From: Nymphaea colorata
Taxonomy: Eukaryota > Streptophyta > Magnoliopsida > Nymphaeales > Nymphaeaceae
DNA length: 64,000 bases
NCBI RefSeq assembly: GCF_008831285.2
Contig: NC_045148.1
Location: 1,426,001 to 1,490,000, forward strand
Direction of reading: 5' to 3'
The notes beneath the pieces were generated by a model, which was not told where the DNA came from, did not search any database, and saw nothing but the letters and a program-made list of their open reading frames with translations. Shown piece by piece: positions 7,481 through 59,700 of this stretch (positions within the stretch are counted from its first letter, which is position 1; every line of letters starts with the position of its first letter). The position numbers and the translations under genes are program-made.

Positions 7481-7645
7481 TTCGTGAACCACTTGAATAA
7501 ATATTTCATGAATCTGCTTCCAATAACCAGCCGAGGCTTGATGTGGGTGTCTCTTATAATTTTTCGTGAACCACTTGAATAAATATTTCATGAATCTGCT
7601 TCCAATAACCAGCCGAGGCCTGATGTGAGCGTCTCTTATAATTTT
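7481..7645. repeat. 82-bp tandem duplication
   Basis: Two adjacent copies start TTCGTGAACCACTTGAATAA at 7,481 and 7,563, giving a period of 82 bp. They differ at only a few positions (for example GGCTTGATGTGGG against GGCCTGATGTGAG). This is a recent local duplication in non-coding DNA. Confidence 0.9.
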
Positions 7646-8859
7646 TAAGTTGTTATGATACTATTGTGAGTTCTTCTATCATGGAACCTTCGATGGGCTG
7701 ATGTGAGCAGTAGCCTACACTTTTCAAGTTGGATCTGTTGTTATTTAGAGTGCCAAATGAAGGGGTTAATTGCTTAGAGGAAGAGAGTTTTTTAAGATAT
7801 CCAATGACAATAATATCAGGATAAATGTGTTAATGAATATGTAAAGCAAAAGAAAAAACTGCTAACCTGAATGCATTATGCAAGACAGCCATGCAGTAGA
7901 ATCTGAATATGTTAGAAGTTAAAGATAGATGGGCTTGGACACCTTTAAGAAATAATATATCCCTAGTTAAATAAAATTAGTAATCTTAATTAAATCTTAT
8001 TATATCACACTCAATAATGCGTAGATGAAACCCAAGTCTAACCTACTTAGACCCTTAGGGGTTATTTGGCATTAAGTTTGTGGTTATTTGGCATTAAAAA
8101 CAAACTGCGAATGTTTTATAAATTTGTTTCAAAATAAAAGTAGATTTATATAACACTTGTACAAGTGTCAAGTGTCTTGTCTTGTGAATCTATCTACCTC
8201 AATTTTAAGGTCATATTCTTCTTAATATTAAACGGCCTCTTAGGTCGTGTTTGTTAGACTTGAATCTCTCCAATGTTGGTTAAGAGATCAGCAGCTGAAA
8301 AAATTGAAATAGATGTGGTAGATTTTCATCATTAAAACTAAACAATAGGCACTAAATGGAAATTTGCACAATTCAAGAGCGGCAATCCTGATGTTAAACA
8401 TCAGATAAGGCGGCAAGATTATTTTGTTCTTTTCCAGGGAAAAAAAACATAAATATTTCAATTTGGAGATCTATACTTGACGATAATTCAGAAGGCACGA
8501 AGCTTTGCATTTTTCACAAAAGGCTTGTTTTTTGTTGATTTTGGTAGAAGCTTGCCAAAAGACCACAGTTAATTCAACGCCCACTTAGCAGGAAAACGAT
8601 TATTGATTTTAGTATGGCAACTGATATTTTTTAGGACAAAAAGGAATACAGAAAATGTGTGGAACCCAATGACGATTGTTCTTTGGCTCAAGTTAAAAAA
8701 AAATAATAATAATAACAATATAATGAAGTGGAGCAATTTTTGTTGTAGGATTGAATGCTTTCCGGCTTGAAAACGACAAAGGCATGAGGCTTCACATGCT
8801 TCAAAATGGCGATACTTCATGCCCAGGACTAAAGTGAACACAAGTGGAGTCAAGCTTGA

Positions 8860-9415
8860 GTTCAGTATGCACGAAACCTTCAGTTTGACTCAGCTCAAAC
8901 TCAAGAATAACTCGGTGGAGTAGCTCGAGCTTGACTCGGCCGAAGTAGCTCGAGCTTGTCTCAGCAGCTATGTGTTGGGATAGAGCTCAACTCGATTAAT
9001 GCTCGACAAACTCATTTGAATAAAATTGATATTCATCATTACGTGTTGAGTTGGATCTCGACTCGATTAAGGCTCGACAAACTCATTTGAATAAAATTGA
9101 CATTCATCATTACGTGTTGAGTTTGATCTCGACTCGATTAAGGCTCGACAAAGTCGTTTGAATAGAATTGATGAGCTCAACTTGATTAAGGCTCGACAAA
9201 CTCGTAAACTCGTTTGAATGTATAGACTTGATTAAAGCTCGATAAACTCGATTAAGACTAGAGCTCGACTTGGCAATTACATGTTGAGCTCAAACTCAAT
9301 TCAATTATTTAAAAAAATTAATTCATAAACTCGAATTCAACTTGTTAAACAAATGACTCGGCTCAAACTTATTCACGAGGTGAGATTTAACGAGTCTACC
9401 CATGTTGTTCAGCCC
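8860..9415. repeat. CTCGA-rich repeat block with 71-bp tandem units, hAT-like end
   Basis: The block is dominated by CTCGA/TCGAG words. Within it a 71-bp unit starting GCTCGACAAACTCATTTG recurs at 9,001, 9,072 and 9,143, followed by shorter degenerate copies to about 9,260. The right edge reads TTCAGCCCTA, which matches the terminal TGCAGCCCTA of the hAT-like element at 26,026-29,415. No matching left end is visible, so this is probably a truncated or decayed relative of that element. Confidence 0.6.
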
Positions 9416-9489
9416 TACCTAAGACCATGATCTCGTTCGTTGGTTTTCAAAAATATTGGTCAAAGGTTGTGAGGCCCCTTTATTTATGA

Positions 9490-20744: not shown

Positions 20745-23308
20745 TTCCACTACCAAGTTTTAAATTATTCTTTGCCATGTCGTGTAAGTTTACATGCGAT
20801 GTGGCTAAATAATGTGCATAGGAAAGCGTTGTATCATAGCCTAAATATGAGACAAGGTAATTATGAGAAGAAAAATAAAGGGCGACTTCCCTCTTGTTCC
20901 TTTCAATTTTTTGCGGATATATTAAGCATCTATTTGTCGAGGATTTTCTTTTTGATTGCAAAAGTCGGACATTTAATCCTCCTAAACGTTCCGTGCTTTG
21001 CCCCGAGTTTATAGGCGACGCCGCCTACGTGAAAAAGTCAGAGGCTGGTGCAAACACAGGACATCTGAATGAATGACATAAATACTTCATTGGGACCATT
21101 GATCCATTTCTTATGCTTGTCTGGAACGCAAATTCTGAAGTCAGGCCAGAGGCCGTTGGGGTCGTTGGAGTTGTCAAAACTCAAAAAACTTCACGGGGCC
21201 CTGAGGGGTGTAGTGTGTAGCATGTGGTTGGTTGGGTTAGCAGACCAGAGAGGACTAGAGAAAAACTGGTCATCGGTTCGATTTTTGTGGATGTCACTCA
21301 TGTGGATTGCGAATTCGATTTTTGTGGATGTCACTCATGTGGATTGCGAATTTGTTGCATGGCTGCAAATTTTTATAGGCATTATCACCAACATGACTAC
21401 CGTATGTTTCTCTCTCTGAGATATTCCACGAATTTGGTGTATGTCATGAGGAGTACACTGGTCAATTTTGGAGCTTCATCATTAACAATACCAAGCTGGA
21501 ATTCGAAATAATTTCTGAAACTGATTGTAAATGCCACCATTTGGAAACCACATTGTACGTAAGCTTGGATTATGGTTTCACCGTTGAGAATCTCACTCTT
21601 AATTGTTATTTTTCTTCTGAGGTTCGTCGGGAGACTTAATAGTCTCAAATCCAAGGCTCCTCAAGAGCATCCACGAGCGGCCTTTGGTGTGACCAAAGAG
21701 TGCCAGGATTTTGGTTACTCCTGCTAAAGCTGCTTTATGCCTGGTTTTCCAATTGAGTAGCTATTTTGTTTGATTAATGATTAATCCACTTGGGCAGCTA
21801 CTGGCTCTTGCATCTCTCTCTCTTTCTTTCTCTCTCTCGTTCTCTCTCTCGCTCGCTCGCTCGCTCTCGCACACACAAAATTACACGGACTAACTGGCCT
21901 TAGATAACATGAATTCCTATAGTGAGCGAAGTTTAGCGGAAATGGACTTCAAGACGAGCAGAAGCTCATGAATTAACTAGACAACGTGAAAGATGAAGAT
22001 ATGTCGCCTCTTCCAATATCCATAGTGGGATAAAATACGCAGATCCACATTTGCAAACAAAGTTCAATGGTTATTACCTCACTATGGCAATTTCAGAATG
22101 CATTTCACCATATCCATTGCAACATTATTCTTCTCATAAGTTCCATGATCATGCTCTGCAGGAAGGGAAGGATTAGTGTACGAAGCACGAGAGAATTATT
22201 AGCTTCTTTTCACTTTCATTGAGTGTGATGCTTTTGGTGGCTTGCCTCATGACATGATAGACGTTACTAATGTTTAATTTGAATATATGAATTGTTGTAA
22301 TGTGCCTTCTGATGGTCCGTTAATCCATACAACGCCACCTTACACCGTGTCAATGGTGCAAGTAAATGAAGAACTGTGCCCAAAACCGTTTAATTTTTCA
22401 TCCTTGTACCTTTCATGTTTTCCAGTCGACCATTAATGGCACATGCTCATGCAAGAGCTCAGCCATTGGAGAAATTGGAAAATGGGGCAGTTACCGTGGC
22501 CGCTAGAGTTCAACCCGATCTGTCATTATGGGCCACCGTAATGGAATTTCAAGGACTGTTTAGTGTGATTGCGGCTCACCCATGATTTTGTCCATAAACT
22601 CACTTTCGTTTTAGCACTCGGACTCTGAATTTCTCGTCATTAGTGAACTTCAATTTTTCTTTTTTATGCCTTTCCTCCCAGGAAGCATTTTTTATGCCTT
22701 TCCTCATCTTCCTTCATGAAGGATGGAAATAATCTTACGGTTGAAGCAGTGTGCACAGACACCCACAACCTTAAGCAAGCGATGTTGGCAGAACATCGGA
22801 GAAAGACTCCAACTCATGGATTCAATCTTTCAAATGCAGGTGATTCTCAAAGAAAAAAAGCGTTCATGTTGGCAATTTGGTATATGTGATTGTACAGAAA
22901 ATGAACTGAAATTGGCAAATGAACGCAAGGAATCGATCATGTATGCCGGACAGGCAAACCCACGGGAAGCATGATAACATGCACTCAATTGATCAGAACA
23001 GCACTCATAAACCAGCGCTCTCGTAACAGATAGAAAAGTACTCTCTTAACAGATAGAAAGAGAAGAATGGAACCATGCAAGCCAGGGGGAACTTGAGTTT
23101 TAAAAGAAGAAACAAAATGCATGAGTGCCATTCGTGGGTTCACTTTTACACATTTTCTAGACAACTTCAAAGCTTCAGCCTCGAGCAGTTCTCAACCCTC
23201 ACACCCTGCATCACTGAAAATTGGTGCCTCGATGCCAGAATTCATATTCCTTAAACCTGTATTTCAGAGTGATGCCACCTCAGTAGCTCTGGGTATGGGC
23301 CTTGTATG

Positions 23309-23347
<39 letters not shown>

Positions 23348-24525
23348 AACCGACCCTTTTCACTTGTGACCATCCATGTGACGTAATACTACAAGGTAAT
23401 TCATCCATAGAAAAGATCATTACATGTTTTTCTTTCGTGAAAAACATATAAGAGAACAATAACTGAGAATAGAACAATTAGACACCGGAGGCGTGAACAA
23501 CGTTATTTATGAACAAACTGCCTATTAATTCAGGCATCTTTCTCCATCTCATGCAGCCCATTTTGCTTCTGCAAGCCTCCGATATAAGTTGAAGAAAACC
23601 AACATCCTAGAAACAGGAAGAATCTTCACGGTGATTGTTATGCACTACTTAAAAGTTAAAAGCACCCTTAGACATTCATGTTCCCTTCTATCATATACTT
23701 GGCCAAGACAATGACAATTGGTAAAGGAAAGAGAATAAAAATGGAAAAGGATACAACAGTTCTACTAGAAACTAATTGGAAAGAAATTCACTCTCCCGTA
23801 GATACAGAGAGCTAGGCCCTGTTCTTTTTTGCAGGTTTTAAGTTATTTTATCTTGACAGGTCACTAAGCGCAGGCACTGTGGTACTCTTACTGTTGGTCT
23901 TTCACAAAAGAACTTGAGAAGGCAAGACAGGAACTCCAGGAACAGAGAGCGATTACTCATTGTCGGCTCATATTAACATAACCAAGGTGTGGAAGGGTCT
24001 GAGTTCCATGGGGGCGACCTCCAATAGCTTACCTGACAAACGAGAAAAATAGATTCATCTTTACTGGTCAGATAGGTCCCTGTACAGGCAACTTGCGTCG
24101 TTGAAATCTAAGCCCCGTTTCTATCTAAGGGCCCAAATGCCCTAAGGGATAACATAATGAAACTCGGAGAAAAGAACGGCGATGCTGATAACGAGATAAG
24201 GTTAAGGCAACCATTTCTATGCCTCCACCAAAAGCTTGTTTTCAATACATGGAGCTCAATTCATATACCTCCTACAGGGGAATCTGTAGGCGATCATCTG
24301 CTTTAGCAAGATAAAATTCCCGCTAAAGAAACAAGATTTTGTTTCGCAAATAACCATAAAAAGTAACTTAAAGAAACAAAAACACCCAGGAAGATGTGAA
24401 ACATAACATATAGCTCATCGTTCTCACTGAAAAAAAAAGAAAAGAAAGACTGAGACCCTAAAAGATGGCAAAAAATCTTGGAAGGGGGATCGAAGGGGTC
24501 GGCCGGGGAGCAAATAAGGCAAAAT
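20745..24525. other. Intergenic region downstream of ISA3
   Basis: No supportable gene. The first few hundred bases are probably the ISA3 3' UTR and terminator. The region also holds a 37-bp tandem duplication (listed), CT-rich microsatellites at 21,811-21,865 and 23,312-23,346, and at 22,439-22,585 a 48-codon open frame with a plausible ATG that I do not recognise. The last part, from about 24,300, is probably 3' UTR of the minus-strand gene that ends at 24,526. Confidence 0.5.
21277..21350. repeat. 37-bp tandem duplication
   Basis: Two adjacent copies of a 37-bp unit starting TTCGATTTTTGTGGATGTCA, at 21,277 and 21,314, essentially identical. This is a recent slippage or unequal-exchange product in non-coding DNA. 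Confidence 0.9.
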
Positions 24526-24987
24526 TCAAGTCCTTGTGGAGTTCTTAACACTGGACCACATCTGGGAGAAAGCCGTCATGACGTGGGGAGCGGCGTTCCC
24601 TATCCCGCGCAGCAACCCGCCGGCGGCGACCCCAATTGCCAGCGTCTCTGCGAACCCCGGCTTCGAATCGACCTTCATCTCCAGAATGGCGAGGCGGGTG
24701 TTGACGGTGTCGAGCTTCCTCGCTGTCTCTACCATGAACTTGTCCTTTTTGTTCCTTCCCGTCCCTGTAACTCTGTACAGAATGGTCTGCAGATCTCGAA
24801 TCACCTTCAACGAGGCCTCCTTGTGGTCTAGACCCTCTGCCTCATACATGGCCACGAGTTCTTGAGGGGTTGGTGGTTTCCTTTTCTGCGACTCCTCCTT
24901 CTGCATAGGCGGAGGAGAAGGGGTGGGAGGTGAGGGAAGGGGCGGTGGCGGAGGTGGCGTGGCAGAGGAAGAATTCGCCGGTTCCAT
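24526..24987 (-). CDS. Conserved-looking plant protein of unknown function, 153 aa
   Basis: A single-exon frame on the minus strand, from an ATG at 24,987 to a TGA at 24,526. Residues 9-28 are a low-complexity Pro/Ser run (PPPPPPLPSPPTPSPPP), followed by a basic segment and a mixed-charge region (about 40-110) with the look of helices: VAMYEAEGLDHKEASLKVI, then VETARKLDTVNTRLAILEM. A small hydrophobic glycine-rich stretch, LAIGVAAGGLLRGIGNAAP (about 118-135), could be a short membrane or amphipathic segment. The codon use, GC content above the flanks, and soluble-then-glycine-rich layout look like a real gene, and I have an impression of similar uncharacterised plant proteins but cannot name the family. 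The antisense frames across the same DNA are shadows. No function is proposed. Confidence 0.72.
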   Translation of the reverse strand: MEPANSSSATPPPPPPLPSPPTPSPPPMQKEESQKRKPPTPQELVAMYEAEGLDHKEASLKVIRDLQTILYRVTGTGRNKKDKFMVETARKLDTVNTRLAILEMKVDSKPGFAETLAIGVAAGGLLRGIGNAAPHVMTAFSQMWSSVKNSTRT

Positions 24988-25059
24988 TTCTCGTCTCTGG
25001 TAAACCCTAAAACCTCTTTCTCTGAAGGGCTTCCCACACAGAATGCAAGAGGGCTAAAC

Positions 25060-26017
25060 CAGTTTGGCTCTCAATGGATAGGGAAGATGAGCATCTTTTA
25101 TACTTAACCCCACACATTAAAATTACTTTTATAAGAGCATCTTTTATGCTTTACACACGCTATAATCATGATCCCTGACCGCCCGTCGAATTTAAAATAA
25201 GTTCTCATTCTTCTTATGTCCTTCCAAAAAATCTTAAACTTAAAAGATCGAGAGAAAGAGATTTAATAAACTTACGTCCTTTGTTGGATAAATCTCTTTT
25301 TTTTTTTTGTCATTTCACTTTAAAATGGATGTTTTCCTTTTATTTCTAATTCTGCGTTTGAGACATGTGTGGGTGGCTGCCCAAACGAGATTTACAAAAA
25401 AAAAAAATTATCAAAGCAAACTTTTTTTGTAAGGGCGTAAGTAACTTGTCTTCCCCCAAATTCTTCTCTAGAACAATTGTTTTAATCTTGTCTTCTAAAA
25501 ATGTAAATTTATGTTTTTTGGTTGAGCAACAAGTTAACAACCCATGGCTTGAAAAAGAGGTCAGTTAATTTTCCATGTCTACAGGATCTTAAGTTGCATT
25601 ACCATTCAAGTTAAGTACTCCACCTCACCACTTTAAAACATAAATATAATGTCCATAAAAATAGAACTAGAGACATACACTTTAACATGCTCCTAACCCT
25701 ATCAAACTATGATATGTCCCTTGAAACTCACGCAAACTATGTTTTAACAATTGGAAAAGAAACATAACTTTCACAAATCTGATTTTCAGAAAGACTTTTT
25801 TTGTGTTGTCATCTAAACTCAACCTAACAATTGCTCAATGAAAATGAAACCATTGTTTTAATAGGTCGCAATATAGATTATATGTTGTGTGTTTGTGATG
25901 TTATATTAATACAGAAATGACTACAGTTTATGACATTTTGTTAACTAAAAAAACTGAGTGAGAGATCCAACAATGTACTTCCAACCTCACTAGGACAAGC
26001 ACCATAAAATTTGCTTC
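25060..26017. other. Intergenic stretch
   Basis: AT-rich DNA upstream of the minus-strand 153-aa gene. It probably includes that gene's promoter in the first few hundred bases. No repeat or coding exon is evident. Confidence 0.5.
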
Positions 26018-26249
26018 ATAGGAAGTAGGGCTGCAGAACGAGTCCAGCCAACTAGGGCTCGACTTGAACTCGCTCGACAAAGCTCGGCTAGAGCTCGACT
26101 CATTTATAAATGAGTCGAGTTCGAGCCGAAAGTTAAACTCGAATCAATAAACGAGTCGAGTTCGAGTTACAAGAACTCGACTCGACTCGGTATAAAATAA
26201 ATCAATTGAATTGAACCGGTGACCGGTTCATGGGTTTAGGGTTAAAATT

Positions 26250-26590
26250 TTTTCCTTCCACTGGACTGCTGCTCTCACTCTCAACCTCTCACCCCTTCCA
26301 CTGGACTGTCGTTGCTGCCCTCTCTCGCCGCTTCTGCTGGACCGCCGTTGCTGTGCTCTCTCACCGCTTCCGCTGGACCGCCGTCTGCTCTCTCTCTTTC
26401 GCTAGATTGCTGCTCTCGCCGCTTCCGCTGGAGTCTGGACCACCGTTGCTGTCCTCGCTCGCCGTTTGCTTTCTCTCTTTCGCTGGACTGCTACTCTTGC
26501 CGCTTCTGTTGGACCACCATTGCTGCCCTCTCTCGCTACTGCTGCCTTAGACGCTGCGACGCACCTGCTCCCTTCATGCTAGGAACCAAG
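26250..26590. repeat. Imperfect CT-rich minisatellite inside the hAT element
   Basis: Degenerate units of roughly 30-40 bp, each built around CGCTTCYGCTGGACYGCCG followed by a CTCTCTC stretch, recur about eight times. They create long stop-free frames (for example 26,230-26,550 and 26,312-26,593) whose conceptual products are repetitive Trp/Leu/Ser-rich chains. A second CT-rich patch lies at 26,700-26,950. I see no protein family here and regard the open frames as a by-product of the repeat. Confidence 0.6.
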
Positions 26591-28764
26591 TAAGATGTTT
26601 TTATTGTAGTGTCGATATTTTGAGAGTTTTTTTGGTGGATTTGTAGATTTTCTTACGGTTGTCTGTTCTTCTTTTGGGCATTATATTGTTTAGAATCGTG
26701 CTTCTTGCTACCTTTCCCCTTCTCTCGCTGCTGCTGCCTCACAGCCTCAGAAGCGTCCCTCTCGCTCTTGCTGGACTCATGCTCCCGCCTTCACCGCTTC
26801 ACGCCAGGTACCCCTTCAGCCTTTCTTTCTTCTTCTCCTTGGTTGTTCTTCTTCTTCCTCCTCCTCCCAACTGATTTTGCCCAAATGCCGCCAGAAATCA
26901 CTACTGCTGCCTTCTCTTGCCGTTGTTGCCTCAGACGCCATCAACGCTTTCATTTCATATCCAGTATGTTTTGATTTCTTCCTTTATATCATATATGTGG
27001 AGGCTTAAGAGGTTTACTCTTTCATATCCAGTACGTTTTTCATATGTTTACTCTTTTAAGAGGTTTACTATATATGCATATTAAGTGTTTGTTTAATTTC
27101 TTATGAAATTCATGTGGCGGTGAAGTCTACCTCACATTTTGTTCCCGTCAACAGAACTTTTCCCTTCTATATGCAAGCACAGTAGAAGTAATCTAACCTG
27201 CCTGTCTTATAGCCACTTTCACTTGTTGGTATGACTATTGTGAGTATGTGAATGCACATATGATGTTATTCTCTACTGCACCATCACACGTGAGTAAAAC
27301 ATCATCATAGCATGTCCAAGTTGATGCTTCTTTATTGTGAATATGTAAAAACAAAATAATAGTTCAGAACAGTAATGTCCAACCATCTCTGCCCTATCTA
27401 CAAGAGGCAGCAACGTCTTCTCTGCTTGATCAAAGTGAATGCTAAACCAACGATAGGAAGGGGGAGAGAGAGAGAAGGCATATGGGTTTCAGCTGGCGTG
27501 TGCCGCCAGTGGCTTGGCTGGTAGACAGATGTGGCATGAGAAGGGGACTGCATCTTTTGTCAACCCAAAACATTAAACCTCTAAAGACAAGATAACAGGT
27601 TGGGTTTGATGGGTGGCTGGACCATTTCTCAGAAACTAGGAACGATATAAAGGTAACTACCCAAATGCATGTATATTTAAGTTTATCATGTTTATTTATG
27701 CTTATATGTTATAGAAGTTGTTTACTTATCAACTATTGTTGGTTTTTTTGTAAGGTACTGCTGAAGATGAGATTGCATGACATGATTCAACATCAATTCC
27801 AACATATTATGCAGTAACAACCTGTCAAAATATTAGGTATTGTTCTAAGTTCAGTTGTTGTTTTGTTCTTAGATGCTTGATTTTACCTTGAGGCAACATT
27901 ATAGCTGAATTTCTAACATTAATTCGAACATATTATGTTGTTTAGTCACTCTAACTTTAAATAAGCATCTCGCAATCCTGAAAGTTGGAAAGTACTTGAC
28001 CTTGAAACAAGCAAGTATTGTTATTTTCTTTTTCTTTCTTAAATGTAAGTGCTTGATGTTGTATATGAAATCAATTAGCTTATTATTGTCTTATGGGTTG
28101 GTTCAAATGTTGAAAGCACTTTATCTTCTTTAGTATAGACATGAGGATGATATATAGTCCATTTTATTTCAGGTAAATTTGAGGATCTATTGAATTGTGC
28201 TTTTACTTTGTTCGTGTCAGAAGCATTTATGTTTTAAGTTTTTAACAATTTCACTGTCATGATCTATTGAATTGTTCCCTCATGTAATGCTATTACGTAG
28301 GTGCACATGGTGTTTTTGAATGTTGGTGCATCTGAAATTCTTGATAGGCCTAAAATTCTTGAAAAGTTAGCGTTGTATTTATTTTCCAGCCTTACTACTC
28401 AAATAAATTGTTTGCCCTGATGGTGTTCTTATGGAAGTGCGGTGATCAACTGCAGAAGTTCATTTCCTTAAGCAGCATTATGCATGAATCAAGAATCATA
28501 TGGTTTTCTCAGTATGGTTTTCTCAGTGTCAACAAAGTGTTGTTGTTCTACATAAGGTGTCCACTTCTTGATTGCTAGACAACAGTCTAAGCGTTTGTTC
28601 CTATAATTTTTAGCACTGAAAAGTTGATAAGGAGAAGTTTTTATATTTACTTTTTAATTGGGATTTATTTTTCTTCATTATTTAGCAATTAGCATTATAA
28701 AGTATTCTTTGAGCCTTTGCTTCAGATAATCAGCTTATTAATTTATCAATCCTGTATTTTGCAG

Positions 28765-28875
28765 ATGATGATGATGATGAATATGAAGAAGGCAATGGAG
28801 GGAACCGACTCCTGGGGTTTATGTTTGGAAATGTTGATGGTTTCGGTGATCTTGATGTGGACTATCTTGATGAAG
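28765..28875 (+). pseudogene. Captured TAF1 (TFIID subunit 1) N-terminal exon fragment
   Basis: One frame from 28,765 reads an acidic run (DDDDEYEEG) followed by GGNRLLGFMFGNVDG and LDVDYLDE. This is the conserved N-terminal signature I know from plant TAF1/HAF1, the largest TFIID subunit. It is preceded by a splice-acceptor-like TATTTTGCAG ending at 28,764, so intron sequence seems to have come with it, which argues for capture from genomic DNA rather than from mRNA. Similarity stops at about 28,875 and the frame continues into unrelated residues before a stop. Only about 37 residues of a protein of well over 1,500 are present, so it cannot be a functional TAF1. It lies wholly inside the hAT-like element. 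Confidence 0.7.
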
Positions 28876-29423
28876 CAAATAACTTCATCTTATATTTTGA
28901 TCTACTTGTGTATATGCTAGAGCCTAGAAGTTTTTCTAAAGCTTGATGGAATGATTAGTGCTACGGTAACAATATGAAGAACTTTTACACTAGTCCTGCT
29001 ATTTGTCAATTGCCTTGTAGGCTTAGGTTTCCACGCTTGTAGTTCTTAAGACCATTAGAGTTTTATGGTCATTGTTTGGAAGATAAGACTGCTGCCAATA
29101 CTAATTCTAGAACATGGACATTGAAATTGTTGATTTGCTTTGGGTACTAACAGTCAGCTTTGCGTGCTCCCGTCTTGTGATGGATATGACTCCGGCGACG
29201 CCGAGCACTTTGGACCGAGAAACAAAAATATCTGTGCAATTCTAATGGAAACTAATTAACAGAAAACTTCCCAACTTTACAATTATTTAATGAAACTCAA
29301 GTTAATCGACTTAATTGTGTACTCGAGTTAAGCGAGTCGAGCTCGCTCGACTTTGTTAATTGAGTCGAGCTCGAGCTTGTGTTAGGCAGCTCGACTCGGC
29401 TAGTGTGCAGCCCTAATAGGAAA

Positions 29424-30540
29424 GAACGATGAGGTTTGGTATCTCATCTGATTCTTACGGGCCTTTCTGAGTTCAAAAGAACCGAGTGACTTGGTAATTT
29501 GAACTTAAGAGAATTATTCTCACCCTTCAAATAAAATAAGCTGTGAAAGAGTAAAACACACGCTACCAACTAAACAACCTAGAATGAGAATTCTCCTCAA
29601 TATGCAATCAATTGAGCTTACAAAAGGCAAATGCCTAATTATTTTTTAGTCACATCTTGGCTCAAGTTTGACTCATTTAATGAACAAGTCGTGTTCAACT
29701 TAAAAAGCTAAAGAGGTTCTCTTCATAGAGAGTCGGGTTCGATGGCCTATCCAGTCTCAACCTGCCGGAGCAGCGACCTCAAAAAAATTTATTCAACAAA
29801 CAATGAAAAACAGAATGAGAAAGAATCAACGAGAGAAAAACACAGGAATAGGCAAAGCTGAACCTCTCCCTGCAGCTAAACCGACATAAACAAATGGGAG
29901 AAAAACAGATTATAAAAAGAAGCTCCATTAAGAACATTGTCTGGCCAAAAGCCATACTGGGTAGGTTCTAAGAATGGCTTTAGCCATCTCCAAAGAAAGC
30001 TCCCTTTTCTCATTGACAGTTTTCTGTAAACATCTACCAGCCCACAGCAAGATCTAAGAAACGGCTTTTCATCCTTCAATATAATCTCTCAATGTCTTAA
30101 GCCAGCCTTTCTGATTAGAAAATACTCCAATCCTTGAGCTCTCCAGCATTGGAACTGACTGAAGATCTCCTCCAATAACTTTCAGATTAGAAAATACTCC
30201 AATCCTTGAGCTCTCCAGCATTGGAACTGACTGAAGATCTCCTCCAATAACGACAACTTAGTATATGGCCCTTTCTGCCTAAAATCCACCACCTCAGATA
30301 TGAACTTGGAGATTTCCTTCATCTTGAATACCCAAGGGCCAAGACAGCATTTCTGCTAACCTTCTTGTCAACAGATATGATTTGAATGAGGAACCTCCCC
30401 TTCACTCCATGCTCGATCTCAGGGATAAAGCCTAAGGAGAGCCAAATGTTACATTAACCAGCCAGTCTTGCATGAACTTACAGGAGTACCAATGTCTAAG
30501 TTCGTGCACAAAATTGGAATGGGGAATTCTCCTTTCTAAA
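29424..30540. other. Intergenic stretch with LINE-derived debris
   Basis: No intact gene. The minus strand from about 29,870 upward has discontinuous coding-like patches, such as a frame with LRSCCGLVDVYRKLSMRKG near 30,000-30,060. These may be downstream pieces of the LINE fragment at 30,543, but stops and frame changes break them. A 72-bp-period duplication sits at 30,113-30,251. Confidence 0.4.
30113..30251. repeat. 72-bp-period tandem duplication
   Basis: Two near-identical copies of about 67 bp, beginning GATTAGAAAATACTCCAATC at 30,113 and 30,185, separated by a few bases. They lie in non-coding transposon-derived sequence and look recent. Confidence 0.92.
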
Positions 30541-30542
30541 TT

Positions 30543-30676
30543 CCTCACCACAAAACTACAAACTTCAACAGCCAGAAACATTTGAACAATATATGATCAG
30601 AAGACTCCTCATCCTTTGGACAAATTGCACACCAATTAGCCAGCGATACACCCCTCTTCTTCACCAGTTGACCGAA
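30543..30676 (-). mobile_element. LINE (non-LTR retrotransposon) fragment: zinc-binding zf-RVT domain
   Basis: The minus strand reads IFGQLVKKRGVSLANWCAIC, then PKDEESSDHILFKCFW. The CxxC...H...C spacing with the LVKRG and EES..H motifs matches the zinc-binding domain that follows reverse transcriptase in plant L1-type LINEs. The frame stops soon after (FVVLW then stop), and no intact reverse transcriptase or endonuclease domain is visible upstream (higher coordinates). This is an old, 5'-truncated and internally broken copy. Confidence 0.7.
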
Positions 30677-30759
30677 TATCATAAATGTCATAAATGACAA
30701 TATTAGTGTACTGAATGTGGAGTCAGTTCGCCTAAGCGATCGAGTTTAAACATAGAACA

Positions 30760-31840
30760 TAACTAATCTTAGTGCATAGTACTTGTCAAATGTTTGCAAA
30801 AACACTGGCAACTAGGAAATTAAGCATGAGATTGCAACACCGTTCAGTTTCCAAGCAAAATAAAGGAGAAAATATCTCCAATTCTTTGGCAAGAAAAGAT
30901 GAATACCTGGTTATGACGCAAAAAGTATATATGGCGAAGAAAAAGAAGGACTATGTGTGCCGTAGGGTACATCTTTCTAAAGCATACGAGCGAGTTACCA
31001 TCCAAAAACTCTCTCGTAAAGTCCATAATGCTCAATGTGTAAGGTCCACCATATTAGATATCTATCTTCCTTGAACCTCTCTTTATTACGAAATGGTCGA
31101 AATCCTATCGTGAGATTTTTTGTGACGACCAATAGCTAAAATTTTCAATTTTAATAGCTTCATAAAACATTCACTGAACTCGTAAGATATTCAATAGTTC
31201 CTATTGGAAAAATTCAACTACTTTTATAGCATCAGATTTTTGGAATTAAAGCAGTAGCCAGGGTCCGGCCCTAGAGCCTGATGGCTACTGGCTCACTATA
31301 TCATAGTGGATGTCCAAATCGTCGAATGCGAATGCGCGTGTGTGCAGCCACAAAGGGCATACGACATTAAGGCTATTAGCCATGACCGGTTATATCTGAA
31401 TTAAACTGGGAAAGAATGTTGCTCTCAAAAAATTAATTACGGCGGACACATGCCAGCCAAAACAAAGAATAAAAGCTATGTCCTATATCATCACCAATCA
31501 AATTAGTGATCATCACATATGGCATGGAGTATGATAAGGTTAAAAGAAAGTGTATAGAAGAGATAACACACAGTTTACGTGGTTCGGATCTAAAGATCCT
31601 ACATCCACGGAAGAAACATCACGCAGGGCTGGTTTTCTTCTTATTTTTCATCAACGAGTACAAGAGCATATATAACATTGAGAGAGAAAACTGAAGCGAG
31701 GAAGGAAGTCGCTCCACTCTCAATGGTACATCCAACGTCCACAGACGTTTACATATGATGATGACCACCATGGAAGGATGTCCTAGACAAAAGCTTTCCT
31801 GCGTGACGTTAGGAGGATGTCTCAACACAGTAGAGGCAAG
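30760..31840. other. Intergenic region downstream of the NAC gene
   Basis: No supportable gene. At about 31,250-31,305 there is a short inverted repeat (GTAGCCA ... TGGCTAC). At about 31,560-31,620 the words TTTACGTGGTTCGGATC and CTACATCCACGG resemble a dispersed repeat I associate with plant LTR-type elements, but I cannot define its borders. The part nearest 31,841 is probably NAC 3' UTR. Confidence 0.4.
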
Positions 31841-33379
31841 TCAAGAGAAACTCCATAGATCAATATCCCAGCTGGTTGTGAACTGTTCATCATCCAGATA
31901 TGATCCGGCAGATTTCTCATATTCGGCGTCTGTCCTTGGGCCTACCTCCAATATTCCAAATGGGACTGACTCTTCCAGTGGCACCAGTTTCATCCAATCG
32001 GCCCACTCATGGGCATAAGCAGATGGACTGACAGCCGAGCCATTGGTACTAATGAAGTCGCAGCGTGGTTGATGTTTTTGTGGAACTGAGCTCAACATCG
32101 TGGAACCCATACTATTTGGTGTATCAGCAGCGAGGTTAGAGATCATGGTCGGCCTTTGATCGGTTGACGCCATTAAGGAATTGATATGCTTAGGAGTAAT
32201 GGAGGATGCAACCACTGGTTGAAGTAGTCCTGTTGTAGGTGAGCTCGGTTGATGATTTTGTGGTGCAAAAGGACCATCCCTTTCTGGTTCAGGTGCAAGT
32301 AGTCTATAATGTTCCAGCATTGATGTCGAATTCAGCCTTTTCGTTTTGATTGTCTGCCCATGGCCAGCAAGATCATCTGTTTCTCCTTTGGGTGTCCGTA
32401 GTTCATAATGCTTCTCCATTAACGTCGCCGTCTGGAGACATTCCAGAGCTAAAGGAATGAATATTCTTGAAGGCATGCGGGAGGTATTGTCGCAAGACGT
32501 TGTTTGTAGTTCTTCAGTACATTGCCTCTTCGCTGGTGGATCTACTACTTCTTTGCTCACGACAACATCGACGTACTCGTTATTACTCATTTTGCAACCT
32601 TCCTCCATTTCATTCGGCACATGCACATCTGAGTTTCCCTTCGCACTCTGTTTCTTCTGCTTATAAGCACATCGTTGGTACACTTTGCACAACACACATT
32701 CATCCAACTGCAGAGTATTCCAGTTTTGTCAATAAAAAAGGAGAGGCAAACCAACGAGTTGAACGCATGAGAGACAAAGAGAAAGAGAAATGACCATGTA
32801 ATTATCGCCACGACTAACGCTACTTTTGTTTTCAGAATCTACTAATCGGTATTCATGCATGATCCAACTGGTTTTGAAGCCACGGTTGGGTTCTCCCTCA
32901 TAATAGTTGAGTACCATCTTTGTCCCAATCTTGTGCATCTGATCGTCAACAATGCTCACTTCTCCGTTGACAGCCTTCCAGTAGCCCTTTTTGGTCGATC
33001 GGCTCGGTCGACTACCATGCGGATACTTCTTTTTCCTCGGAGTGAAAAAATAGCATGCTTCTTCTGCATGTCCAGGAGCCATTGCTGCAGACCATCGTGA
33101 CGCCATAACATCTGTAAGCTCACATGACTAGGGTAAAGAAAATGATAAAAGATGGGTAGTGACATAAGCACAGGCGATCCTGGCTCTCTCACGCTTACCT
33201 TTCAGCTGGTCCGGCTCTTTGGAGTAGAGGTCGGTGGAGAGGATGAAGTCGCCCCACTGATAGTTTTCAGGGTGCAGAACCTTCCTTCTCAAATGGTAAG
33301 CCAGCAGCTGTTGATCGGTGGGGTCGAACTTGAACCCAGCTTCTCTGCCACCTTCAAACCGCCTGCCTGAACTTTCCAT
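31841..33379 (-). CDS. NAC-domain transcription factor (3 exons, 446 aa)
   Basis: A plant-specific nuclear transcription factor. Exons, 5' to 3', are 33379-33199, 33111-32819 and 32707-31841. Introns are GT-AG (the second donor is GTTAGT) and the phases close. The NAC domain occupies about residues 10-170: subdomain A GFKFDPTDQQLLAYHLRRKV (usually FHPTDEEL), subdomain C CYFFTPRKKKYPHGSRPSRS then KKGYWKAV, subdomain D IGTKMVLNYYEGEPNRGFKT then SWIMHEYRL, and E CVLCKVYQRC. The C-terminal 270 residues are Ser/Thr/Pro-rich with acidic patches, as expected of an activation region, and end in WDIDLWSFS. I see no membrane segment, so it is not a membrane-tethered NAC. FDPTDQQLLAY and KKKYPHGSRP place it among divergent NACs rather than the NAM/CUC or ATAF core. 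The start ATG lies just before the GFKF motif; the subfamily is not assigned. Confidence 0.9.
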
Positions 33380-36574: not shown

Positions 36575-39500
36575 TCACAGGAAAATTGGGGCCATCACCA
36601 GTGTTATGGTTGCAAGCATCTTGATGAGAACATGAAGTGAAGGTCCAGCAGTATCTTTGAACGGGTCTCCAACACTGAATCATTGCCAAAATAAAGATGA
36701 AGTTAGATCATATCTGTCGTTAAGCCTATTTCCAAGGCACGAACCATCATATATTCAATGTAAAACGTCGATAAATTCATGATTTGTGAAACTACATTAT
36801 TCTATTGCATACTAGAACTACCACCATCAGAGACTGGAAGCGTCTGCAACATAGACAACCAGGATGTATAACATGGGTATAATATAGAAACACTACAATT
36901 CTTTTAGACATGAAAACTGCAAAGATGACACTGAAATTTCATATTGAAAGCAATATTCTAGACTTACGTATCTCCAGTAACTGCTGCTTTATGGCAATCA
37001 CTGCCCTTCCCTCCAAGAGCACCAGTTTCTATGAACTTCTTTGCATTATCCCATGCGCCGCCAGCAGTATTCAAAAAGAGTGCCATCAGTATACCAGAAA
37101 CAGTAGCAAACATTAGCATGGCAGCCACCACTTTGGCTCCAAGTAATGGATGACCTGTATGATGCCCTATGAACCGGAAAATAACCCCTGCAAAAGGAAG
37201 AAATTTCAGAACAAGAAAAACCTGACAGTCCACACTATGAAGTTCCCTTATTTTATCTTCTATAACATGCTTCAGCTTACGAAGGCACCAAAGGTCGGCA
37301 AATTAAAGGCCATCATAAACTTCATCCTATTTGAAGACACCAATCATCTGCAAACATCGGTGGCATGAATGAAGTCTCACCGACAACAATGGGAGACACA
37401 ATTGCCAAAGCTCCAGGCTTAATCATTTCTCTGAGTGATGCTGATGCGACAATAGCTACACAACGCCCATAATCTGGTTTTTCTTTATATTCCTGAGAAA
37501 CAGAAATTTTAGGAAGCCAGTCCATAAGCTGTGCAGAAGAAACTTCAAAAAGACAACTCAGAAAACCACACACCATTATGCCAGGTCTTTCAATAAACTG
37601 CCTCCTAACTTCATTAACAACTTCTTGGGCAGTCCGACCAACAGCAGCACAGGCCCATGCACTGAACAGGAAGATCAGCATCGAACCCAACAAGCCTCCA
37701 ACAAAAACTTCTGGTATTGCAATATCAACCTGAAATGCATTAAGCATTAGCTAATTCAGCTATTGCACCACCATCATAAAATCACAAACCCATCCTAAGA
37801 CTATGTGTTTTCAGGTTAGTGGCAAAGGGCAAGCAGGACTGGTGTCAAGCTTGGCAGAAAGGGAGGACATATAAACCAGATCCTAAGCTTTAATACGACC
37901 TTTATCAGTTAAACAATGTTAAGGTTCTAATAGGTGAAACTCTGAGCTACACACATCATGCCCCCACTGAAAGTAGAAAACCCAGGTACTAAAATCTAAA
38001 AGATAGTTGCTGGTGAAATGAAATCAAGATGGTTGCTGGTGAAATGAAATCAGATTCACAAGCATACCTGCTTAAAAGGTGAATGAGCAAAAGCAGCTAC
38101 TTCATCCATGTAAGCACTAAACAAAAGGAAAGATGCAAGTGCTGCAGATCCAATAGCAAACCCCTTGGTGGTAGCTTTGGTCGTGTTCCCCACTGCATCT
38201 AAAAGATCAGTGATCTCCCGGACGCTTTCAGGCTGAAATAAAAAATACATGTCATTAATAATTGTAGAATGATTACTTGCACAATTATTTGAAATATTGG
38301 AACTTTATCCTTTTTCCTTTACCAGGCATGAATCTATATTTACAAGAGAATGAGTGAATGACATAAAATTTTATGAACCTCAAGCCAACTGGGAAGAAGC
38401 ATCAACTTCTCTGGATATATTGACCATAAGTTCTAAAGCTTAGGGAAGCATGTGCAGGACGAATCTGCCTAACATTAGCCACTAGCCATAAAGTTCAATA
38501 TAATTCTGTCCCTCCATCATATCCAAACTTCAAGTAATATTTCAAGAATAAGCATGTTCTACAAGCATGCATGCTTGAAGATAATGTACTGTCAACTAAC
38601 AATATCATTGTAAGTGGTGCACAAAAAAATTAAACAAAGTGAAAAAATATGCTATTGGTTTGACAATTACTCACCTGTTGACTCATTTCCACAATTCCAC
38701 CAGCATTGTCTGCTATGGGGCCAAACATGTCCATGGTTAGCACATATGCTGCAGTACTGAGCATCCCCATTGTAGCAACAGCAGTTCCAAACAAACCACC
38801 AGTTGGATGTCCATTCTCATCCACCAGGCCTGAGGTGTGTCCTAGCCAGAAGGCTGACAATACAGATACGCTGATGACAAGAACTGGCAAGGCAGTTGAC
38901 TCGAGACCCAAACTGACACCAGCAATGATATTGGTACCATGGCCTGTTGAGCTTGAGAGAGCTAATGAACGCACTGGTTCGTGCTTATAATCAGTGTAAT
39001 ATTTTGTGATCCACACAAAAACATAGGCTGTGATGATGCCCACCAAACCACACAAAGCAAAGTTTAGCCACGCTGAAGGAGCTTGCTCAGTATAAAGTAG
39101 CCACCGTGTTGACTGCCAATTACGTTCAAAGGTAAAACATACATGTATCTATGTGGATAAAGTTTTCAAACTAAATAAAAAAAATTGATAAAGAGACAAG
39201 AAAAAACTTATAGAACACAAAGTAAATTACCAATTTAGTACTCCAATATTGCAGATTAATGTAAACCATGTAAATAACAAATCTGACTTATGTTAAAAAA
39301 TGGGACTGCATCGCTTGTAACTGAAATATTACCCCAGCAAATGCTAGAACAGCCAAGAATATTGTAACTGAATAACCCTTCTGAAGTATTGCCATTGGAT
39401 CCTCTATAGGTGTCTTGAGACCTGAATCACGTGTGCCCCTGATGGAAAGAATCCCAGCTGATGATACCACCAAGTCAAAGGAATGGACAACAAGAGGGAA

Positions 39501-56711: not shown

Positions 56712-59700
56712 TTAATGGATCTGCAGGTTGTTGAGGTCCTTGCATAAACTCAACGGTGCCTGCTGCCTGCCATCTGGGATGGCAATCAGAACTATTGGCT
56801 TTGAAGGCCTAACATAAGGAGCATCGCACCGGTAATAGCCTTTTCTTTCGAGCTGCAGTATCTCCCCGCGTTTCAAGTTCCGCATATTAGAGTCGCCAAG
56901 AGCTGGTGTCTCCCGCTTCGTGCAGGGGTTAAGCACATCAAGGAAGTCCTCCCCTTCTTCCAACTGCAGCAACACAATAGTCAGCATAGGCTAGTTTTAG
57001 GATTCATCAATACTGAACAATTTTTTATTTGGAAAAGCAAGGTTTAGAATAGCATATTCTAAGATGCAGAAAGCAGTGAAAATCTGCAACAGAAGGTCTG
57101 GGTTTTCAAGGAACATTAGAGTAAGCACTGGAGAAAGAAACAAGAACAAAATTAACTGTTCTAAAATTGGAGAAGCATTATACTCATTATAATAGACAAT
57201 GAAAAAATATAAGATGACAAACACTAACTGGTAATACAAGTCAATAATGTACGAAGTCCCTAGTTTGAGCGTGCTTTACTCTTTCACGCTACACGTTCAG
57301 CAACTACAAAAGGTACATTAAACTTTTTTGCTTTAGGGTTCAATCAGAGAATTTGACCCAATTGAATCTAGAAACAATAAGTTGAAGACAGAAGGAAAGA
57401 AGCATGTGCTAGTATAAAATAAATGAAGCTTGCTTAATCAGGAAAAGTGCCCTCCTGCCATCTGTCATGCAACTCTCGGTAGTAAATCATAATAATTCAG
57501 TTCAAAGTATGCTTTTTCTTCCTACATCAGTACATGAACAAAGGTGCTTAGCTGCTGCCATGCAAACCCTCATGTAATACCACAAAGACACTACTGTTCA
57601 TGCCAGAATGTTATGAGGAACTCCATTGATATATGGACCCTTTAGTGCAGTCATAATGTGGAGAGATAGTAGTAGTAAAGCTATTATTTTCAGTATTTCC
57701 ACTTTAGCCAAATTTTGGTGAACCTATCTCCACATCTCAGCTCCAGTAATATACCATACAAGTAAGCTCAAGCTCACGCAAGCCTTTTCACAAGAACCTC
57801 AGCACATTACCCAGAGCCTTGCAATAGGTGAAATACAAAGCTTTCTCCAATATAAAATAGGATGGAAATTAAAAAAACAGAACAGGTAGCAAGGAACATA
57901 CAACATACCTTTTTCTTTGTGATCAGGTAATCAAGATCAACCAAAGAAAGATTGACCAGTTCTGTTGTCTCAGGCAACCATGTAAGTTTCAATTTTGTTG
58001 TTTTAACAGATCCCTCGAGATGCAAAACTCCTGTCATGAGGGTGACATTTTCATCCTGATCTTTCTGGATTTCATTTATAATGGCATTTCCCCAGTCCAT
58101 CAAAGTTACTTCCTCTCCTGCAGACATAGCAGAAGCATCAGCTTTTTCTACCCAAATCCGCTTTGTATATGTGGTAGCTTTTTGTCCAGCACCCTCATAT
58201 TTCTTATGCCGAGGTAAGATTCGAACAAATGGCGTCTCAGGACCATTAGTTAAAGTCAATAGTACCCGTCCTTCTTCAACAACAGCAGTATGCCTTGGGC
58301 ATACTGGATCAACTAATTTCTTGTTGATAGTCCACAATTTGTCCCACTCCATGAGGTTGAGATTTTTTGAAGCACCCTATAAGAGTTTGTAGGTAAGAAT
58401 TTGATATCAGCAAATTGAGTAAAATAATATGATTATGCTACATAAAGCAAGACATAAGAGCAAATAAGGTTACCTGCGAAAGGATGAACTGGAGAAGAGC
58501 CTCAACTGTTAAACCCCTGCGAACCATTCCTTGCACAGTGGGGAACCTAGGATCATCCCAGCCATCAACTTTCCCATGCTCAACAAACCACAAAAGTTTA
58601 CGTTTGCTCAAAAGAGTATAAACAAGATTCAACCGGCTGAACTCATAAATCTGCACTTTCCGCACTCCCATGTCCTCTAAAATCCTGTAGTATTGCTCAT
58701 TTCGATCATGATATTCACTTGAACGGAGTGCATGTGTTACGCCTTCATGTACATCAACAAAAGGGCAGGCAAAGTCATATGTTGGGTACACTTTATACAT
58801 TTTCCCTATGCGATGATGAGCAATAGGATTGGAGCGGTAGTAAACTGGATCTCGAAGGGATTTATTTAGTGCCTGCATGTCCAGTTTACCACGCAAACAG
58901 CATTGCAGACCCCTCTCTGTCCCAGCTATCATTTCTTTCCACAATGCCAAATTAGTTTCGATACTGTTGTTTCTGCATTTTGATTCAATGCCATCCATTC
59001 TCTCTTTCTGCATTTGTTCCCTTGGTGTATCATCAACATATGCTTTTCCACTGATTATCATCTTCTCAGCCATTTCCATCAAATTTGGGAAGTAATCAGA
59101 AGTATAAGTCACCTTTTCATATTTGATCCCCAACGTCTCGACATCTGCCAAGATATTCTCCACAAACTCATTGCTCTCTTTAGCAGGATTTGTATCATCA
59201 AAACGCAGAATTAGCCTCCCTTGGTACTTTTGAGCAAAGTATTGATTCAGAAGTGCAGCCTTGGAATGGCCAATGTGAAGGTAACCACTAGGCTCTGGGG
59301 CAAATCGTAAGACAACCTTTCCAACTTCTGCACCAGGAAGTTCCACATCAAAAGGGCACATGGACTTCTCCCTGTCACTATTTTCTGCATTTGTAGTATT
59401 CTCCTCCTTTTCCTTTGGTTTTGCAGATTTTGGTTTGCCTAAGCCTCTTTTGCCAACATATGTCTCGGTAAGCTCGTTTAAAACAGAAGCATATTCTAAT
59501 GCTATGGAGTTATACCAGCGAACCAGATTCTGATATTTCTTGGACTTTCTCAAACTATCCCATCTTTGACCAGTGCCTTCAGAAACAATCCCATAAGTAA
59601 ATAAAATATGAATTGTTAACTAAAATTTTCAACATATAGTGAAAATGTAAAATACCTGCAAGACCTGACCAAATGGCTATGTCTGCAACTGACAAGCTAT

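Follow-up and report, generated by a model that had tools for sequence, protein, structure and literature searches.

A non-autonomous hAT element of Nymphaea colorata carrying fragments of TAF1 and of a BRO1-domain gene, and its relatives in the genome

The element and its ends

The window analyzed here is a 64-kb stretch of the Nymphaea colorata genome (C11:1,426,001-1,490,000), and the interval 26,026-29,415 within it is a hAT element, as judged by its ends, by a target-site duplication and by CTCGA/TCGAG repeats that are confined to its two extremities. The ends consist of the 10-bp sequence TAGGGCTGCA, which we take to be a hAT-type end and which has exactly two mismatch-free occurrences in the window, namely, at 26,026-26,035 on the plus strand and at 29,406-29,415 on the minus strand, forming an inverted pair. 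They are flanked by the 8-mers ATAGGAAG on the left (26,018-26,025) and ATAGGAAA on the right (29,416-29,423), which are identical at 7 of 8 positions. Both the perfect 10-bp inverted ends and the 8-bp target duplication with one mismatch had been noted in the first-pass annotation and were borne out. The CTCGA/TCGAG motif occurs 10 times in 26,026-26,225 and 8 times in 29,266-29,415, is absent from the intervening 3,040 bases, and is present 93 times in the entire window.

Between the left (26,036-26,225) and right (29,266-29,405) subterminal regions that contain these repeats, and like them on the plus strand, the element is composed of a series of distinct segments. A CT-rich 5' backbone of the family (26,226-27,208), which is partly tandemly repeated in relatives, is followed by an insert of about 440 bp (27,209-27,645) that, among the loci compared, is common only to the C1 copy and is missing from C1b, and by a further family backbone segment (27,648-27,914) that in the C12 copy begins about 40 bp past the transposase dimerization domain. 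These are succeeded by a fragment of a BRO1-domain gene (27,938-28,498), the first unit of a 14-bp tandem duplication (28,499-28,512), a TAF1 fragment with the intron-exon-intron structure (28,513-29,142), and a sequence to the right of the TAF1 breakpoint (29,143-29,265) that is common to the C7b and C11b copies. Element bases 1-235 recur at several places in the genome, and the nearest match of the left half (element bases 356-1620) is at C1:38.6457 Mb (93%), the 440-bp insert included. In agreement with the initial claim, no transposase domain was detected in the six frames of the window copy at E values of up to 1; Rfam matched nothing within 25,000-31,000.

Inverted ends may also arise by chance, in this case around a TAF1 pseudogene fragment and with no element present. 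A qualifying end pair was defined as two perfectly inverted 10-mers that contain no fewer than 4 G/C, lie at most 6 kb apart and have flanking repeats of at least 7/8. One such pair, that of the element, was found in the real window, and 39 of the 300 dinucleotide shuffles contained one or more (mean, 0.13), in no case with a YAGGG start; the ends and the duplication are therefore only moderately unlikely by themselves. The G/C filter was introduced after an unfiltered version, in which the real window was swamped by AT-repeat pairs and a pair was present in 36 of 100 shuffles. Taken by themselves, the terminal ends are suggestive of a hAT element without deciding the matter, and the subterminal repeats are the stronger evidence. 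Among the literature matches listed for TAGGGCTGCA, none was, by title, on transposons of such a kind. Against the shuffles stand the confinement of the CTCGA/TCGAG repeats to the element ends, the same ends with flanks identical at 8 of 8 positions at four other loci (C12, C7a, C7b, and C8), the recurrence of the TAF1 piece within other copies, and the lack of any TAF1 domain in the six frames of about 3.5 kb on each side of the element (22,501-26,025 and 29,416-33,002), and we assign chance next to no probability. A larger TAF1 pseudogene around the element was considered as well and rejected on the basis of the same scans of the flanks.

Two host-gene fragments in the element

The frame that starts at 28,767 reads DDDDEYEEGNGGNRLLGFMFGNVDGFGDLDVDYLDE and was matched to PF09247, the TBP-binding domain of TAF1, with an E value of 1.3e-6 when scanned as a short frame (28.9 bits; cut-off, 25). 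Read within the frame that spans the entire element, this domain scored 21.5 bits, below the cut-off, as did the exon of the TAF1 gene itself when a long frame was scanned (23.2 bits). In a PDB search with the 39-residue frame, five ceruloplasmin matches (E values of 0.013 to 0.026) ranked above human TAF1 (E value of 0.14), and for this reason the PDB evidence is weak alone. The peptide or its pattern was also sought in viral contigs, where none of 90 pattern matches was confirmed, and in genome contigs and plasmids, where there were none; these collections are not of plants and thus carry little weight.

The 407.8-Mb assembly (783 contigs) was then searched, and since the best 40 of 1,305 candidates were scored, all copy numbers given here are minima. 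Among these 40, a single non-element locus, on the minus strand of C7, matched the fragment. This locus contains a 110-nt exon at C7:7,302,835-7,302,944 and a candidate next exon, which reads DAKEHLSALADKLGPSL, about 2.5 kb further on, and downstream on the same strand it encodes DUF3591 (5.6e-7 and 2.3e-52, in two frames) and a ubiquitin domain (1.1e-6). Such domains are also named for Arabidopsis TAF1 in a figure legend (PMC4949998), where the former is printed as DUF5391, the likeness being one of domain presence and not of order. The captured fragment, 28,513-29,142, corresponds to C7:7,302,575-7,303,214 (minus strand), with 559 of 666 positions identical, gaps included (84%), across intron, exon, and intron; a slightly wider alignment gave 560 of 625 ungapped sites. 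The match thus spans the exon with about 250 bases of the intron before it and about 270 bases of the one after it. The first-pass annotation had regarded a lack of similarity to the TAF1 gene of the genome as a possible objection and had proposed a search for the intact locus and for the limits of the intron similarity; the locus was found on C7, with similarity extending from 28,513 to 29,142.

The TAF1 exon itself occupies 28,765-28,874 (110 nt, plus strand) and represents part of the TBP-binding domain. Its acceptor, TTTTGCAG, is retained, whereas the donor, GAA followed by GTAAAT in the gene, has become GCAAAT in the element. It differs from the gene exon at 2 of 110 bases and has an open frame in which 35 of 36 residues are as in the gene. 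The earlier assignment of a TAF1 frame to 28,765-28,875 therefore stands as regards its identity, supported by PF09247 and the match to the C7 gene, and requires correction as regards its limits: the first two exon bases, from 28,765 on, belong to a split codon, the frame starts at 28,767, and 28,874 is the last base of the exon. Because the match runs through both flanking introns, the piece was captured from genomic DNA and not from spliced RNA, in line with the origin first proposed for it.

A second host-gene fragment, absent from the earlier description, lies immediately upstream. Positions 27,938-28,498 match C11:17,415,428-17,415,977 (minus strand) at 519 of 561 positions (93%), and no other place was seen among the genome matches listed. 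The open frame of this source locus that overlaps the match contains a BRO1 domain (PF03097, E value of 7.2e-10). From an alignment inspected by eye, the fragment consists of an intron together with the opening codons of an exon (about GDQLQKFISLSSIMHESR) and ends inside the exon; the likely BRO1 acceptor, TATAG, is altered to TATGG, again as read by eye. The 31-residue BRO1 fragment of the window was alone without a Pfam match. At the junction of the BRO1 and TAF1 pieces lies the 14-bp tandem duplication of TATGGTTTTCTCAG, and it is with the second unit that the TAF1 match begins (TAAGGTTTTCTCAG in the gene). A junction of this form is one that template switching can produce.

Related copies and the course of the capture

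At least four other family copies contain the TAF1 exon, namely, C12 (3,582 bp; flanks TATCTTGG/TATCTTGG), C7a (5,497 bp; CTAGGGGG/CTAGGGGG), C7b (7,330 bp; CATGCACA/CATGCACA), and C11b (4,694 bp). A further member, C8 (5,944 bp; CAAATTAG/CAAATTAG), is a TAF1-less relative. In the eight copies for which the target duplication was compared, it is perfect (8/8) in C12, C7a, C7b, and C8, 7/8 in the window copy, 6/8 in C5 and C3, and 5/8 in C11b. TAGGGCTGCA is present at the left end of all seven other copies and at both ends of 7 of the 8, the right end of C7b having one mismatch. Rather than placing the element borders so as to exclude the TAF1 fragment, which had been named as another possible objection, the four copies enclose it, three of them within perfect 8-bp duplications. 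The suggestion that the element may spread the fragment gains support from these copies on C7 (two), C11 (another one), and C12. At a sixth place, C2, there are 104 bases of TAF1 intron that end just before the exon; the single right-end candidate downstream of them has one mismatch and nonmatching flanks.

Transposase domains of the hAT type were identified in C7a (PF05699, 3.8e-29; PF14372, 4.7e-28), C7b (PF05699, 8.2e-28; PF14372, 5.2e-14), and C12 (PF05699, 8.2e-29), and the hAT RNase-H and dimerization domains were found in the TAF1-less C8 (PF14372, 8.7e-29; PF05699, 5.8e-23). The frames of the family are broken or split, and in C7a and C7b the domains are spread over more than one frame. 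The description of the element as non-autonomous consequently holds for the window copy, with the qualification that three of the four other TAF1-bearing copies possess hAT transposase domains. An open frame of C11b was seen to resemble the transposase frame in look.

The TAF1 piece is located in the copies between the end of the transposase and the right terminus, and the members can be grouped by the stretches, cargo or backbone, that they share in this 3' zone: C8 with C3, C5 with C1b, C12 with C7a, and C7b with C11b. In the same zone C5 contains an ATP-citrate-lyase-like frame, which scored below the cut-off of 26.8 bits for PF16114 (23.2 bits; E value of 5.5e-5) and for which all 12 PDB matches were ATP-citrate synthase or citrate lyase (E values of 0.005 to 0.08); no such frame was seen at any other locus in the comparison. 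The cargo shared by C7b and C11b matches C11 at 13.51 Mb (91%) and 13.59 Mb (89%), and at the one of these two loci that was inspected no gene was recognized by eye. The additional cargo of C12 and that of C8 were without a Pfam gene domain, and that of C7b gave only Remorin_C below the cut-off (E value of 0.016).

The details of the TAF1 piece in the different copies bear on the number of capture events. Several independent captures by different family members would account for the varied neighboring cargo and for the differing left limits of the TAF1 match, which in TAF1-sense coordinates are 7287 in the window copy, 7452 in C7b and C2, 7483 in C12, 7526 in C7a, and 7527 in C11b. However, all five exon-bearing copies have the donor GCAAAT in place of the GTAAAT of the gene, and a 7-bp insertion in the downstream intron is present in the window copy, C7b, and C11b, which are all of the copies that keep this site. 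In these same three copies, which are those that reach it, the TAF1 match stops at the same base (7926), past which they continue with the same non-TAF1 sequence, bar 6 extra bases in the window copy; C12 and C7a have a common TAF1 end at 7714. Given the GT-to-GC donor in all five copies and the identical right breakpoint in three, the simplest account of these sequences is one capture of at least 640 bp, followed by copying with partial losses, and independent captures are quite improbable. The breakpoint is also informative on whether a nested element, such as a Helitron or a MULE, brought the TAF1 piece into the hAT element. One weak Helitron-like hairpin is present at about 27,518, which would fit such an event, but it is 1.2 kb away from the TAF1 exon, and a search inside the element with 12-mers and at most one mismatch gave no inverted pair with an exact repeat of 5 or 8 to 11 bp, although two with 3-bp repeats were seen. 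Since in three copies the TAF1 piece passes into hAT-family sequence at the same base, we regard a nested element as very improbable.

Returning to a single capture followed by spread, the finding of hAT transposase domains in three of the four other TAF1-bearing copies (C7a, C7b, and C12 as scanned) indicates that the element that took up TAF1 probably bore a transposase; the window copy would be a deletion derivative. In the proposed sequence of events, a transposase-bearing hAT element would have acquired a copy of part of TAF1 in its 3' zone, probably through a template switch while a break within the element was being repaired, and the TAF1-carrying element would then have moved to several places by means of the family transposase. 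One lineage may subsequently have gained BRO1 DNA beside TAF1, with the 14-bp tandem duplication at the junction, and have lost the transposase, giving rise to the window copy, whose movement would depend entirely on transposase provided in trans. That TAF1 preceded BRO1 is inferred from the pattern of sharing among the copies and not from a tree. We consider it very probable that the interval belongs to a hAT family as a non-autonomous member formed by deletion and that the zone between the transposase and the right end has taken up host DNA.

Use of the captured exon and comparison with known systems

The captured exon may be, or have been, functional, either as a constrained TBP-binding peptide or as a source of TAF1-directed small RNA. 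Its open frame in the window copy, close to that of the gene, is in keeping with this, as is the distribution of changes between exon and introns: when TAF1 was compared with the window copy, C7b, and C11b, the exon had 0 fixed and 9 variable sites out of 107, and the introns had 19 fixed and 11 variable sites out of 247 (Fisher p 0.0012). This contrast weakens when the intron count is halved in order to allow for constraint on the gene, with p rising to 0.027 for the same three copies; over four copy sets, in which the numbers are small, raw p values ranged from 0.0007 to 0.029 and halved ones were 0.018, 0.027, 0.22, and 0.24. Against a function also stand the in-frame stops in the exon of C7b and C11b, that is, in two of the four other exon copies, the changes among copies, which are mostly protein-changing when counted by eye on the alignment, and the GC donor of all five. 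Because of the stops and the mostly protein-altering changes, the exon is most unlikely to yield a useful protein, and a functional exon, past or present, is decidedly unlikely.

The exon and intron tallies are nevertheless at odds with a simple neutral passenger derived from the gene as it is now. The same pattern would be explained if the donor had been a diverged but functional copy of TAF1, such as a diverged allele or a lost duplicate, or if there had been a period of constraint. A more extended reading combines a hAT cargo zone that repeatedly takes up host DNA (TAF1, BRO1, ATP-citrate lyase, and the C11 locus) with an exon that, before it spread, derived from or went through a copy still under constraint for the TBP-binding peptide, be it a diverged or lost functional TAF1 or a phase of use by the element; we hold this combination to be unlikely and offer it tentatively.

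Rice Pack-MULEs carry host gene fragments, including introns, inside their terminal inverted repeats; as members of the Mutator superfamily, they have long ends and duplications of 9 bp. The Nymphaea element resembles them in having gene fragments with introns inside inverted repeats and differs from them in that its ends are short and of the hAT type and its duplications measure 8 bp. That hAT elements capture genes is already published (PMC2528002, PMC8903248). For Hatvine-6, a grapevine hAT, it is described that members share the transposase and the ends, whereas the remainder, often unique or shared among few members, matches host DNA of both genic (introns and exons) and non-genic origin (PMC2528002). 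According to the table of that paper, Hatvine-6 has 13-bp terminal inverted repeats and a 9-bp target duplication, as compared to 10 bp and 8 bp in the Nymphaea element, which is from a different plant and is likened to it by description and not by sequence; relative to that description, the present case adds the location of two donor genes of one copy and the tracing of one capture through five copies. The Pack-hAT elements among the Pack-TYPE elements of rice and maize, as presented in the corresponding study, have hAT ends, 8-nt duplications, host coding DNA, and similar elements elsewhere, and were annotated by a pipeline with Bg and Ac ends (PMC8903248). The hAT ends, the 8-nt duplications, the host coding DNA, and the similar elements elsewhere are shared by the Nymphaea element, which differs from that description in its TAGGGCTGCA ends and in that members with transposase domains carry cargo, too. 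As to the Pack-TYPE criteria, the window copy is without a transposase, contains host DNA from TAF1 (C7) and from a BRO1-domain gene (C11), and has similar elements elsewhere in the genome. In animals, Pack-TIRs with host DNA inside DNA transposons have been reported, one of them a multicopy Pack-hAT, together with gap-filling and template-switching models (PMC8277862, as outlined there). The host DNA inside a DNA transposon and template switching as its proposed source are common to both cases, with the difference that theirs are from animals.

A published capture of TAF1 by a transposon was not found in a literature search. For one capture, the donor gene, the exon borders, the junctions, and the history of shared changes are now resolved, and members with transposase domains carry cargo. 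It therefore becomes testable how cut-and-paste elements acquire host DNA and whether the exons so acquired ever come into use.

Host gene exons, a possible LINE remnant and tandem duplications

Host gene exons lie on the minus strand of the window, encoding a NAM (NAC) domain (32729-33127), an H+ pyrophosphatase (37322-37750) and a class I tRNA synthetase of the E and Q type (58438-59619). A weak zf-RVT match at 30575-30664, also on the minus strand (E value of 0.00098; 20.2 bits, below the cut-off of 27.5), possibly represents a LINE remnant. Tandem duplications were detected at 30107-30251 (73 bp, 98.6% identical) and at 7481-7646 (84 bp, 96.4% identical).

Other hAT-like traces

A second, degraded hAT-like stretch is present at 8824-9417 and contains 17 of the CTCGA/TCGAG words. 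One of its ends is TAGGGCTGAA (9408-9417, minus strand), and no target duplication was seen for this stretch, the left end of which is not clearly placed. Just beyond the right border of the main element, a short stretch at 29641-29745 resembles decayed hAT subterminal repeats and carries GAGTCGGGTTCGA at 29730.

Insert and cargo in the element family

The main element harbors an insert of about 440 bp at 27209-27645 that, among the fetched loci, is shared only with the related C1 copy. Within the related C5 hAT element, an ATP-citrate-lyase-like exon fragment was found at L022:5084-5176. The C7b and C11b elements carry cargo (L028:2783-4620) that matches C11 in two places, one at 13.51 Mb and the other at 13.59 Mb.
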